From Sphingopyxis sp. BE259 (GTDB taxonomy: Bacteria; Pseudomonadota; Alphaproteobacteria; Sphingomonadales; Sphingomonadaceae), in NCBI RefSeq assembly GCF_031457495.1, contig NZ_JAVDWM010000001.1, positions 2,778,001 to 2,842,000 of the forward strand: a stretch of 64,000 bases of DNA. Direction: 5' to 3'. Positions within the stretch are counted from its first letter, which is position 1; the number at the start of each line of letters is the position of its first letter. Made by a program: the position numbers and the translations under genes. Under the pieces are notes generated by a model. The model had not been told where the DNA came from and did no database searches. It saw nothing but the letters and a program-made list of their open reading frames with translations. Below are positions 22,236-57,977 of the stretch, one piece after another.

Positions 22236-22910
22236 ATGGCTGAGTATTGTTTCCACCTCGAACCCACCGGCACCCCGCGTGCCACTGTGCTGTTCGTTCC
22301 GCCGTTGTTCGAGGAAGCCAACCGCACCCGCCGCACGCTGGTGCTGGCGATGCGCGCGCTCTCCGCAGACGGTTTCGCGTCCATGCTCCCCGATCTCCCT
22401 GGCCAGAACGAAAGCCTCGTTCCACTGGAACAGGTTAACCTCGCCACCTGGCAAACCGCACTCGCCGATACTGCCGCAGCCATCGACGGCCCGCTTATCA
22501 TCGCGTCGCTCCGCGGCGGCGCGCTGATCGACCACCACGCGAAGGCCGCGGTCTGGTGGCGGCTCGCCGCGGTCGGCGGCGCGTCGCTGCTCCGCACCCT
22601 GATGCGCGCCCGCGTCGCCGCCGATCGCGAAGCCGGGCTGATCTCGTCGCCGGGCAGTCTGCAAGCCGAAGCCGCCACCGCGCCGCTGCTGCTCGCGGGC
22701 AACCGCCTTTCGCCAGCGATGATCGCGCAGCTGGGCAGCGCCGAAGCCCAACCCGTCCTCCCCCTCCGCACCGTCACTGTCGGCAGCGCCGCCGACGCCA
22801 TCGCCGGAACCCCGCTCTGGCTGCGCGCAGAACCGGGTGAGGATAGCGTCATGGCCGAAGCAATCGCCACCGACATTACCGCCTGGAGCACAACATGCGG
22901 CATCAGCTGA
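22236..22910 (+). CDS. Exosortase A system-associated hydrolase 2
   Basis: A 224-residue alpha/beta-hydrolase-fold protein. It starts MAEYCFHLEPTGTPRATVLFVPPLFEEANRTRR, the oxyanion strand typical of the exosortase-associated hydrolase 2 group. LPDLPGQNES follows near residue 52. The position of the nucleophile elbow reads ASLRGGA (Ser91), not a canonical G-x-S-x-G, so catalytic competence is uncertain. It could be a thioesterase or a non-catalytic partner. Its end overlaps hydrolase 1 by 16 nt. Context suggests it acts on the product of the ligase/ACP pathway. Confidence 0.85.
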   Translation: MAEYCFHLEPTGTPRATVLFVPPLFEEANRTRRTLVLAMRALSADGFASMLPDLPGQNESLVPLEQVNLATWQTALADTAAAIDGPLIIASLRGGALIDHHAKAAVWWRLAAVGGASLLRTLMRARVAADREAGLISSPGSLQAEAATAPLLLAGNRLSPAMIAQLGSAEAQPVLPLRTVTVGSAADAIAGTPLWLRAEPGEDSVMAEAIATDITAWSTTCGIS

Positions 22911-55782: not shown

Positions 55783-56649
55783 CTAGGCGTCGCTCTGACG
55801 TTCGGTTTCGGCAGCAGCTTCGGCCGGGACCTGTTCGTCCTCGGTCACCGGAGCAGCTTCGACAGCCGGAGCTGCTTCGGCAACCGGAGCAGCCGCTTCT
55901 TCGAGCACGGGTTCGGCAGTCGGTTCGACCGCTGCGCCCAGATCTTCGCCGCGGTTGGCGCGGGCCTGCTGGCCGCCACGCGTCGCCGCCTGGGCGATCG
56001 CATCGCAGTACAGGCGGATCGCACGTGCCGCGTCGTCGTTCGCCGGAACCGGGAACGCGATGCCGTCAGGCGACACGTTCGAATCGAGGATCGCGACGAC
56101 GGGGATGCCAAGGACGTTGGCTTCCTTGATCGCCAGCTCTTCCTTGTTCGCATCGACCACGAACATCACGTCGGGAATGCCGCCCATGTCGCGGATGCCG
56201 CCGAGCGACATTTCCAGCTTGTCGCGTTCGCGGGTGCGGTTGAGCACTTCCTTCTTGGTCAGGCCCGAGGTGTCGCCCGAAAGCTGTTCCTCAAGGGTCT
56301 TGAGCCGCTTGATCGAACCCGAGATCGTCTTCCAGTTGGTGAGCATGCCGCCCAGCCAGCGGTGGTTGACGAAGTGCTGACCCGAGGCGCGCGCCGCATC
56401 GGCAATCGGACCCTGCGCCTGGCGCTTGGTCCCGACGAACAGCACCTTGCCACCCGACGCCGCCGACGAGGCGACGAATTCGAGGGCGCGCGCGAAAAGC
56501 GGCACGGTCTGCGAAAGGTCGAGAATGTGGATGCCGTTGCGCGCACCGAAAATATACGGCTTCATGCGCGGGTTCCAGCGGTGGGTCTGGTGGCCGAAGT
56601 GGGCGCCAGCCTCGATAAGATTCTGCATCGTGACGACAGGGGCCGCCAT
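55783..56649 (-). CDS. rpsB: 30S ribosomal protein S2
   Basis: A 288-residue S2. It has the signature [53 protein letters not shown] and [18 protein letters not shown]. The C-terminus carries an acidic Ala/Glu/Pro extension of about 50 residues, longer than in E. coli S2 and common in sphingomonads. The ATG at 56649 is chosen by homology; the open frame continues upstream but is not S2-like. It heads the translation/envelope operon. Confidence 0.98.
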
Positions 56650-56959
56650 GGTCTTTCTCCTTCCGGTTGGTCCTCTGGAAAGCAAGAACCGGGTTCCGCA
56701 AGCGGATGGTCCCGGCACCGGTTTATGTGCGCTTTCCATGTGGAATGGGCGGCCCGTTAGCGGCGTTGACTGGCAAATGCAAGCGCCGAGCGGCGCTTTG
56801 GGACGAACCGTGCACGCGTCACCTTATTCGATCCGGCGACAATCTGACTCGGTTCGTCGCAAAACTGTTGAGAACAAATAGAGAACATGGAACAAAAAGC
56901 CCAGCGAAACCGTCCTTTGGTGAAAAGGTTTCGTTAACGAAAACCCGGAAGGACAGATC
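56650..56959. other. 310-bp divergent region upstream of rpsB and the SOS-box small gene
   Basis: No gene is visible. It should contain the rpsB promoter (minus strand) and, at 56872-56886, the LexA-type box upstream of the 86-residue protein on the plus strand. The stretch 56860-56950 is notably AT-rich for this genome. Confidence 0.7.
56872..56886 (+). promoter_or_regulatory. Alphaproteobacterial LexA (SOS) box
   Basis: GAACAAATAGAGAAC fits the alphaproteobacterial SOS operator, the direct repeat GAAC-N7-GAAC (equivalently GTTC-N7-GTTC). A TTGAGA that could act as a -35 element overlaps its left half at 56868-56873. It lies 74 bp before the ATG at 56960. No other clear match was noticed in the window. 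Confidence 0.7.
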
Positions 56960-57220
56960 ATGGTTCAGGTCGCAGCTGCACTCCTCTTCGCTCTCGCCGC
57001 CGGGCTCGGCATCACGGTGATCCTTGCCATGCTGAAATCGAACGAGATGGCGATTCTGTCGGCGTTGCTGGGCGAAGGCGCGTTTCCGGCCGACGCCGCT
57101 CCGCAGCCTGGGCCGGCGACCGTCATCAAGCTGCGCCCATCGGCGCCGCGCCGCCACATTGCGCGCGCCATTGTCGATCGCCCGATCAGTGCCCGCCCAC
57201 AGTTCAGCCGCGCCGCCTGA
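56960..57220 (+). CDS. Small single-pass membrane protein, predicted SOS-regulated, hypothetical
   Basis: An 86-residue protein. An N-terminal hydrophobic helix (about residues 4-25, AAALLFALAAGLGITVILAML) is followed by KSNEMAILSALLGEG, a Pro/Ala spacer and a basic tail (RPSAPRRHIARAIVDRPISARPQFSR). The positive tail suggests a cytoplasmic C-terminus. A good ribosome site (GGAAGGA, 6 nt spacing) supports the ATG. The upstream LexA box suggests DNA-damage induction. Small membrane proteins of this sort block division in Caulobacter (SidA, DidA), but I see no sequence similarity to them. Its 3' end overlaps the convergent pssA stop region by 17 bp. Function unknown. Confidence 0.72.
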   Translation: MVQVAAALLFALAAGLGITVILAMLKSNEMAILSALLGEGAFPADAAPQPGPATVIKLRPSAPRRHIARAIVDRPISARPQFSRAA

Positions 57221-57977
57221 CCTTGGCATAGCTCGCCAGACCGAACGGCAACGTCGCGGCATAAATCGCGCAGACCGCAAGCAGCGTCAGCCACGGCGCG
57301 GTGACCAGCGCCGCGCCCAGCAATCCCACCCCGGCCAGAGCGAACAGCCGCCACGACCGGCGTAGCCGGATCGAGGCCCAGCTGTAGGTCGGGATTGCCG
57401 AGATCATTAACATCGCGACGCCGAGCGCCCAAGGCATCACGACATACCATTCGCGGAACAGCTCATTGCCAGTCGTCAGCCACAGATAGACGGGGACGAA
57501 CGACAAGCCTGCACCCGCGGGCGCCGGAATACCGGTGTTGAAGCCTGCCGACTCGTGCGGCTGAAAATCGGCGTCCATGCGCGAATTGAAGCGCGCGAGG
57601 CGCAGCGCGCAGCAGACCGCCAGCGCCAGCGCCGCAGTCCAGCCGAACTTCGGCGCGTCCTGAAGCGACCACAGGAACAGGATCATCGCCGGGGCGACGC
57701 CGAACGCGATGACATCGGACAGCGAATCGAGCTCGGCGCCGAACTTGCTCTGGGCACGCAGCAGGCGGGCAATGCGGCCATCCATCCCGTCGAGCACCCC
57801 GGCAAAGATCACCGCCGCAATCGCCAGTTCGAATTGCCCGCCGATTGCAAAGCGCACTCCGGTCAGGCCGAAACATAGCGCCAGCACGGTAATCGCGTTG
57901 GGGGCAAAGGCGCGCAGGCTGATCCCGCCGATACGGCGCCCGGCAGCGTCGGGAATGATCTGCTGGTCTTCGCTCAC
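57204..57977 (-). CDS. pssA: CDP-diacylglycerol-serine O-phosphatidyltransferase
   Basis: A 257-residue membrane enzyme with the CDP-alcohol phosphotransferase signature DGX2ARX8GX3DX3D, here MDGRIARLLRAQSKFGAELD followed by SLSD (about residues 65-90). About seven hydrophobic segments follow. It condenses CDP-diacylglycerol and serine to phosphatidylserine. It is one base after psd on the same strand, so the two steps of phosphatidylethanolamine synthesis are one operon. Confidence 0.95.
   Translation of the reverse strand: MSEDQQIIPDAAGRRIGGISLRAFAPNAITVLALCFGLTGVRFAIGGQFELAIAAVIFAGVLDGMDGRIARLLRAQSKFGAELDSLSDVIAFGVAPAMILFLWSLQDAPKFGWTAALALAVCCALRLARFNSRMDADFQPHESAGFNTGIPAPAGAGLSFVPVYLWLTTGNELFREWYVVMPWALGVAMLMISAIPTYSWASIRLRRSWRLFALAGVGLLGAALVTAPWLTLLAVCAIYAATLPFGLASYAKVRRRG

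Follow-up and report, generated by a model that had tools for sequence, protein, structure and literature searches.

Between rpsB and pssA of Sphingopyxis sp. BE259 lies a small membrane-protein gene that very probably belongs to the LexA (SOS) regulon of the Sphingomonadaceae. Since the protein is conserved, apparently switched by LexA, and usually ends in Ala-Ala, it probably serves as a short-lived brake after DNA damage. The gene, its operator, their conservation, the membrane helix, and selection on the C terminus are supported by computation. The complete proposal, that of an inner-membrane checkpoint protein that is repressed by LexA, quickly degraded, and most likely an inhibitor of division, is put forward tentatively.

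Results

The locus and its product

The stretch of DNA analyzed here (the window) comprises 64,000 nucleotides (nt) of a genome consisting of one contig of 3.67 Mb. Within it, an open reading frame (ORF) of 86 codons plus a stop (56960 to 57220, + strand) was assigned as the small gene, encoding an 86-residue single-span membrane protein, from the reading frame itself, conservation, dN/dS, and a structural model. The initial annotation had placed a GAAC-N7-GAAC operator and a strong ribosome-binding site before this gene, and both were confirmed. The operator, GAACAAATAGAGAAC, identified by reading of the sequence and by conservation, lies at 56872 to 56886 (+) and is separated by 73 nt from the ATG at 56960. 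The ribosome-binding site GGAAGGA, conserved in this form or as AAGGA, is found at 56947 to 56953 (+), 6 nt 5' of the ATG. The divergent neighbor at 55783 to 56649 (-) is presumably rpsB, encoding ribosomal protein S2. Before it lies a match to the Rfam rpsB leader RF01815 (56653 to 56742, - strand; 27.5 bits, below the gathering threshold of 40), and the Rfam scan returned subthreshold matches only. The convergent neighbor at 57204 to 57977 (-), which we take from a sequence motif to be pssA, encoding phosphatidylserine synthase, shares 17 nt with the small gene (57204 to 57220), an overlap that was analyzed by codon comparison.

Other elements were observed around the operator. A stretch 5' of the box that is conserved in Sphingopyxis (56832 to 56863) contains the inverted sequences GCGAC and GTCGC and could be part of the rpsB promoter or a further operator. 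Between the box and the start codon, the inverted repeat CGAAACC/GGTTTCG (56905 to 56911 and 56927 to 56933) is for the most part retained in the leaders of Sphingopyxis; it is broken in places, and some of the changes would still allow G-U pairing. No pairs were predicted for these leaders by RNAalifold, and a leader hairpin is not claimed. No sigma-70-like promoter was detected by a simple scan.

The product of the small gene is almost certainly a membrane protein. The single N-terminal membrane helix described in the initial annotation was borne out by the AlphaFold2 model of the window protein, in which a helix at residues 2 to 27 (codons at 56963 to 57040, + strand; pLDDT about 96, with block values of 96, 98, and 95) is followed by a short helix at residues 29 to 36 and a disordered tail. 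For other family members the single span was read from hydropathy, which was also the criterion by which they were selected. The 88 family ORFs with a box had a median length of 78 residues (range, 52 to 111; as a rule, 70 to 111), and their tails were Arg-rich (748 Arg versus 82 Lys in the 88 proteins) and otherwise divergent. The mean net charge of these proteins was +6.4 after residue 26 (lowest, -1) and about 0 at residues 2 to 6, so that by the positive-inside rule the protein would be oriented N-out, C-in. The window protein matched no Pfam or NCBIfam family, 42 family members compared with the same two collections gave single-member matches only (best E value, 0.017), and homology to a known division inhibitor or family was not detectable. 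A single weak PDB match, to PscE (E = 0.06), was attributed to chance resemblance between single helices.

Conservation of the operator and gene

A single box by itself is no proof; it is conservation that gives it significance. GAAC-N7-GAAC was found twice in the window versus 1.79 times expected (standard deviation, 1.37), and 53 of 100 shuffles reached the same number; the whole host genome contained 88 such boxes versus 56 for a reversed control pattern. Since the single box in the window was not significant, the question became one of conservation. The other match in the window, GAACAACGGCGGAAC at 22296 to 22310 (-), has a core that is not of the AT-rich kind.

Within Sphingopyxis, the small ORF is supported as a real protein-coding gene under purifying selection, with residues 1 to 43 nearly unchanged among the proteins and a dN/dS of 0.17 over the gap-free 28-codon core of 30 loci. 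A single-protein search found it encoded by 33 of 36 genomes of the genus and by none of 24 genomes from other genera. Three genus members gave no match. Two of them, G015 and G017, have a diverged version and a box beside pssA, as seen in the pssA 3' flank; pssA was not found in the third (G021). The Sphingopyxis matches listed (120 of 258 and 120 of 232) were annotated as hypothetical or uncharacterized protein and once as putative membrane protein, and members from Altererythrobacter aurantiacus and Qipengyuania were likewise annotated as hypothetical or uncharacterized protein.

The initial annotation named absence of a box upstream of orthologs as one result that would refute it, and the comparison did not refute it. 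Such a box was present in all 30 Sphingopyxis loci (L001 to L030), starting 86 to 90 nt 5' of the ATG, and at most 160 nt from the start in all 46 named loci, which came from titled genome records (mostly Sphingopyxis, the rest titled by family, order, class, or phylum only). In an alignment of 27 of the 30 leaders (L021, L003, and L027 were omitted, and their boxes were read), TTGAGAACA, the next A but one, and GAACATG were invariant. The operator surround (56868 to 56893, + strand) adds TTGA 5' of the box and ATGGAAC, with a third GAAC, 3' of it; in the same alignment TTGA and ATG were invariant and the third GAAC was nearly so, and L003, outside it, has TTGG in place of TTGA. Positions further 5' of the box vary among Sphingopyxis loci.

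An order-wide search with a Sphingopyxis profile gave matches in 20 of 247 genomes, 12 of them inside the genus. Among the eight outside it, L105 and L111 seemed unrelated, whereas the match in G151, from another genus (E = 4.9e-5), was real and lay between rpsB and pssA behind a box. Because this was the same place, the place itself was examined in other genomes. This gave 98 family slots on the rpsB side, one per genome and about one per genus, from 159 genomes plus 18 family genomes. The choice of ORFs rested on a membrane helix, a start codon, and a ribosome-binding site, with the C terminus ignored, and L197 (52 residues, perhaps misframed) is included in the counts. Across the slots, the N7 spacing occurred 95 times on the gene strand versus once on the opposite strand, with spacings of N4, N5, N6, N8, N9, and N10 occurring 4 to 12 times each, and the leader, counted from the first base of the box to the start codon, measured about 50 to 145 nt. 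In L125, L182, L122, L123, L124, and others, the small gene is preceded by two or three GAAC-N7-GAAC boxes.

An adjoining pssA was recognized by motif in 66 slots (57 genera). The ORF was present in 65 of these and ended in Ala-Ala in 60 of the 65, and a perfect box lay 30 to 220 nt upstream in 63. The remaining 32 slots contained 15 ORFs, 10 with a box and 11 with an Ala-Ala end. For 21 of these 32 genomes the pssA 3' flank was examined, and box and ORF were both there in 13; since the pair stands beside pssA when rpsB is apart, the box belongs to the small gene and not to rpsB. By script, ORF and perfect box were found together in 88 of 100 family genomes (89 with G060, which has a TTG start), and slot L203 of genome G300 holds the module. 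The presence of this pair in 78 of 83 genera, with the box staying with the gene away from rpsB, strengthens the case for LexA control made in the initial annotation.

Eleven of the 100 family genomes lack a perfect box, the ORF, or both, which counts against our explanation. The ORF has a one-mismatch box in G094, G212, G238, and G305 and no perfect box in G088; G100 has an ORF by rpsB without a box there and a box close to the pssA end; and G246 has a box with no recognized ORF. There was no convincing module in G103, G158, G111, or G082, of which G111 has a box near the pssA end. Loss of LexA was rejected as the cause of module absence: LexA was detected in each of the 24 further family genomes examined for it and was present in those module-lacking genomes that were tested.

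In other families of the order, box and ORF were found in 0 of 11 rpsB slots (six families) and 0 of 5 pssA 3' flanks (three families). As far as tested, then, the module is restricted to sphingomonads, in line with the specificity that the initial annotation had suggested. A class-wide profile search gave matches in 24 of 290 genomes, five from Sphingomonadaceae; the 19 outside the family were dismissed as noise (best E value, 3.7e-4; internal stop or a frame of at least 250 residues). The family is wider than sequence search reveals: this fast-evolving small gene can be traced across genera by position and operator, and profile search finds little beyond one genus.

SOS circuit of the host

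Judged from sequence, control of the small gene by LexA is very probable. As in an alphaproteobacterial LexA regulon, the operator is conserved in orthologs and LexA is present with a box of its own, which in the host starts 53 nt before the lexA ATG. The host LexA has a cleavage-like site, KIAA/G, of the kind seen in Escherichia coli LexA. Host GAAC-N7-GAAC boxes lie near recA, uvrA, radA, imuA-like, and rmuC-like genes, a repair-linked radical SAM gene, and others; these neighbors were read at 19 AT-rich boxes picked from the 88 and are not a census, and the imuA, uvrA, and rmuC matches were below NCBIfam cutoffs, with uvrA cut by the locus end. Possible further SOS genes beside the boxes at 371229, 2165460, 3120981, and 3529471 of the host genome include a CinA-like gene, two radical SAM genes (one of the PA0069 type, the other repair linked), and a gene for an AAA ATPase weakly similar to PtuA. 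No match to SulA (PF03846) was found anywhere in the host genome. In S. granuli TFA, lexA, recA, radA, dinG, and imuAB-dnaE2 are reported to rise in anoxia (PMC6472365).

C-terminal Ala-Ala and the overlap with pssA

Neither the pssA overlap nor the C-terminal Ala-Ala figured in the initial annotation. The window protein ends in SRAA plus stop (57206 to 57220, + strand), and its Ala-Ala is proposed as a degron from the frequency of this end in the family: 80 of 88 ORFs with a box versus 2 of 45 long ORFs of the window, or 71 of 78 by genus. Two observations count against our explanation, namely, that 8 of the 88 lack the Ala-Ala end and that the signal lies largely within the stretch overlapping pssA.

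The overlap is 17 nt in the window and 17 to 107 nt among overlapping slots. In 72 of 75 slots the stop keeps one register, facing V/I-R/K-R-Q/R of PssA or close to it; in the window, the PssA codons GTC AGG CGG sit opposite the stop and last Ala codons. Because a shared register could itself yield Ala-Ala-stop, PssA codon choice was tested. An A is required as the first base of the PssA codon that faces the stop and last residue; all 39 such codons that encode Arg were AGG, versus 27 of 930 Arg codons in the upstream parts of pssA taken as background. The next PssA codon sets the penultimate residue, CGG giving Ala and CGC giving Gly, a choice to which the PssA protein is indifferent. Among the 63 cases in which this codon encodes Arg, CGG occurred 59 times and CGC never, versus 322 and 418 of the 930 background codons (P = 7.5e-23 for the CGG bias, uncorrected for kinship). 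The rare Arg codon AGG, fixed in pssA opposite the stop of the small gene, is a codon-level trace of overlapping genes.

Five of six credible nonoverlapping loci also end in Ala-Ala (SEAA in L119, RAAA in L167, ALAA in L220, and RLAA in L230 and L231; the exception, L176, ends in NLA), a tally that omits L118 and L129, where an ORF without a box was judged spurious. L119 and L231 have the Ala-Ala end without a perfect box. Where pssA is not overlapped at the site (L230, L231, L234, L240, and L241), the A[AG]G CGG pair was absent in all five, a small control since some of these genomes look G+C-poorer there. From the PssA codon bias and the Ala-Ala ends of nonoverlapping loci, we conclude that the C-terminal Ala-Ala is under selection in the small protein.

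Terminal Ala-Ala often tags proteins for rapid destruction. The ssrA tag of the host, ANDNEALALAA, ends in LAA, and the Ala-Ala of the small protein therefore looks like a ClpXP degron. That it is a degron seems somewhat likely, and degradation would be by ClpXP. Caulobacter CtrA, ending in NAA, and poly-Ala tails are tabled as ClpX signals (PMC8138137).

Discussion

We propose that DNA damage leads to cleavage of LexA and that the small single-span inner-membrane protein would then be made. Its N-terminal helix would lie N-out/C-in, with the Arg-rich tail in the cytoplasm, and would contact the late divisome (FtsW/FtsI/FtsN), most likely stalling septal peptidoglycan synthesis, as is reported for SidA, DidA, and YneA. 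The Ala-Ala would act as a built-in degron, probably for ClpXP, so that the brake would be gone soon after LexA re-shuts the promoter. By analogy with the known inhibitors, the protein could well act as a division inhibitor, with the divisome as its presumptive target. It is rather doubtful that the module is, in full, a family-wide SOS checkpoint in which a LexA-repressed, C-inside single-span protein, with its stop and ClpXP degron codons locked inside pssA, links damage signaling to division arrest, timed removal, and possibly phospholipid synthesis at a single locus.

Other explanations of the locus were weighed against this proposal. A box that arose by chance or controls rpsB, with an ORF outside SOS control, would be compatible with the number of matches expected in the window but was rejected as highly improbable, given the conservation of the box, its specificity in strand and N7 spacing, and its place beside the small gene and pssA where rpsB lies apart. 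Alternatively, rather than being a degron, the Ala-Ala may simply follow from the C-terminal motif of PssA encoded on the opposite strand. The constant register of the stop opposite that motif speaks for this, but the Arg codon that sets the penultimate residue is almost always CGG and never the commoner CGC, and all but one of the credible nonoverlapping loci keep Ala-Ala, two of them without a perfect box; we consider this explanation unlikely. It is improbable, too, that the transcript is the point, with SOS-induced antisense transcription into pssA lowering phosphatidylserine synthase and the protein being secondary. Most slots in which both genes were read show them convergent and overlapping, and the small gene remains beside pssA in 13 of 21 genomes in which rpsB lies apart. 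However, their shared codons would also account for this linkage, selection on the protein and its C terminus is strong, and L220, L230, and L231 keep the ORF without the overlap.

Two further explanations accept an SOS-induced membrane protein and give it another task. It might be a TisB/DinQ-like peptide that depolarizes or modulates the membrane and slows growth with no divisome target. The small protein is single-span and very probably LexA controlled, the leader of about 50 to 145 nt could carry translation control, and DinQ of E. coli is described as an SOS-regulated, single-span inner-membrane peptide that depolarizes the membrane (PMC3567139). However, a conserved Arg-rich tail of 45 to 60 residues with a selected C terminus is not known from such peptides, leader structure was not predicted, and we see little likelihood in this account. 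About as little attaches to a membrane anchor for DNA or repair factors, in which the SOS-induced protein would bind the nucleoid, anionic lipids, or a repair protein through its Arg-rich tail and keep it at the membrane: Arg-rich, otherwise divergent tails would fit a nonspecific binder, but they are also plain inside anchors, and neither a domain nor a partner was found.

As a putative SOS division inhibitor, the small protein would be a concrete, conserved candidate for the whole sphingomonad family, in a host genome without a SulA match, and would offer a clean test case of an SOS brake switched off by a built-in degron. With pssA, it also forms a naturally occurring example of convergent genes in which each limits the codon choice of the other.

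DinQ and TisB are much shorter than the small protein, and we know of no long tail or Ala-Ala end in them. In the cited description they resemble it as SOS-regulated single-span membrane peptides and differ from it in belonging to type I toxin-antitoxin loci (PMC3567139). Among the matches listed, open-licence PMC titles and abstracts yielded no paper on this gene or on a sphingomonad SOS division inhibitor. Known SOS inhibitors of similar make are reported to target FtsW/I/N and to be removed by proteases (PMC4211646, PMC6851548, PMC13396833, and PMC6051672); YneA is described as acting on FtsW, which predictions point to as a target shared by SOS inhibitors (PMC13396833). SidA of Caulobacter crescentus, to which the initial annotation had likened the small protein, is likewise a small, LexA-controlled alphaproteobacterial protein with a single inner-membrane span. 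The likeness in control stood, the SidA operator being reported as the same GTTCN7GTTC type (PMC12700426), but that in size class did not, since SidA, which interacts with FtsW, has 29 residues (PMC4211646) versus 86 here and the small protein has a long Arg-rich tail and Ala-Ala. In size the small protein is nearer to DidA (71 residues) and SosA (77 residues) than to SidA. DidA, also from C. crescentus, is a small single-span membrane protein made after DNA damage, but it is described as SOS independent (DriD) and as binding the periplasmic part of FtsN (PMC4211646), whereas the small gene has a LexA-type operator. SosA of Staphylococcus and YneA of Bacillus share with it LexA/SOS control and an N-terminal single span plus a C-terminal part, and are reported to be turned over by proteases (PMC6851548, PMC6051672, and PMC13396833). 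Their C termini are described there as extracellular and cut by CtpA-type proteases, whereas the tail here is predicted to be cytoplasmic with a ClpXP-like end, and the small protein has no LysM domain, unlike the SosA/YneA group. The size mismatch therefore keeps it from being filed with SidA, and the probably reversed topology keeps it from being filed with SosA and YneA; in our judgement, it nevertheless probably works in the manner of the SosA/YneA/SidA kind.
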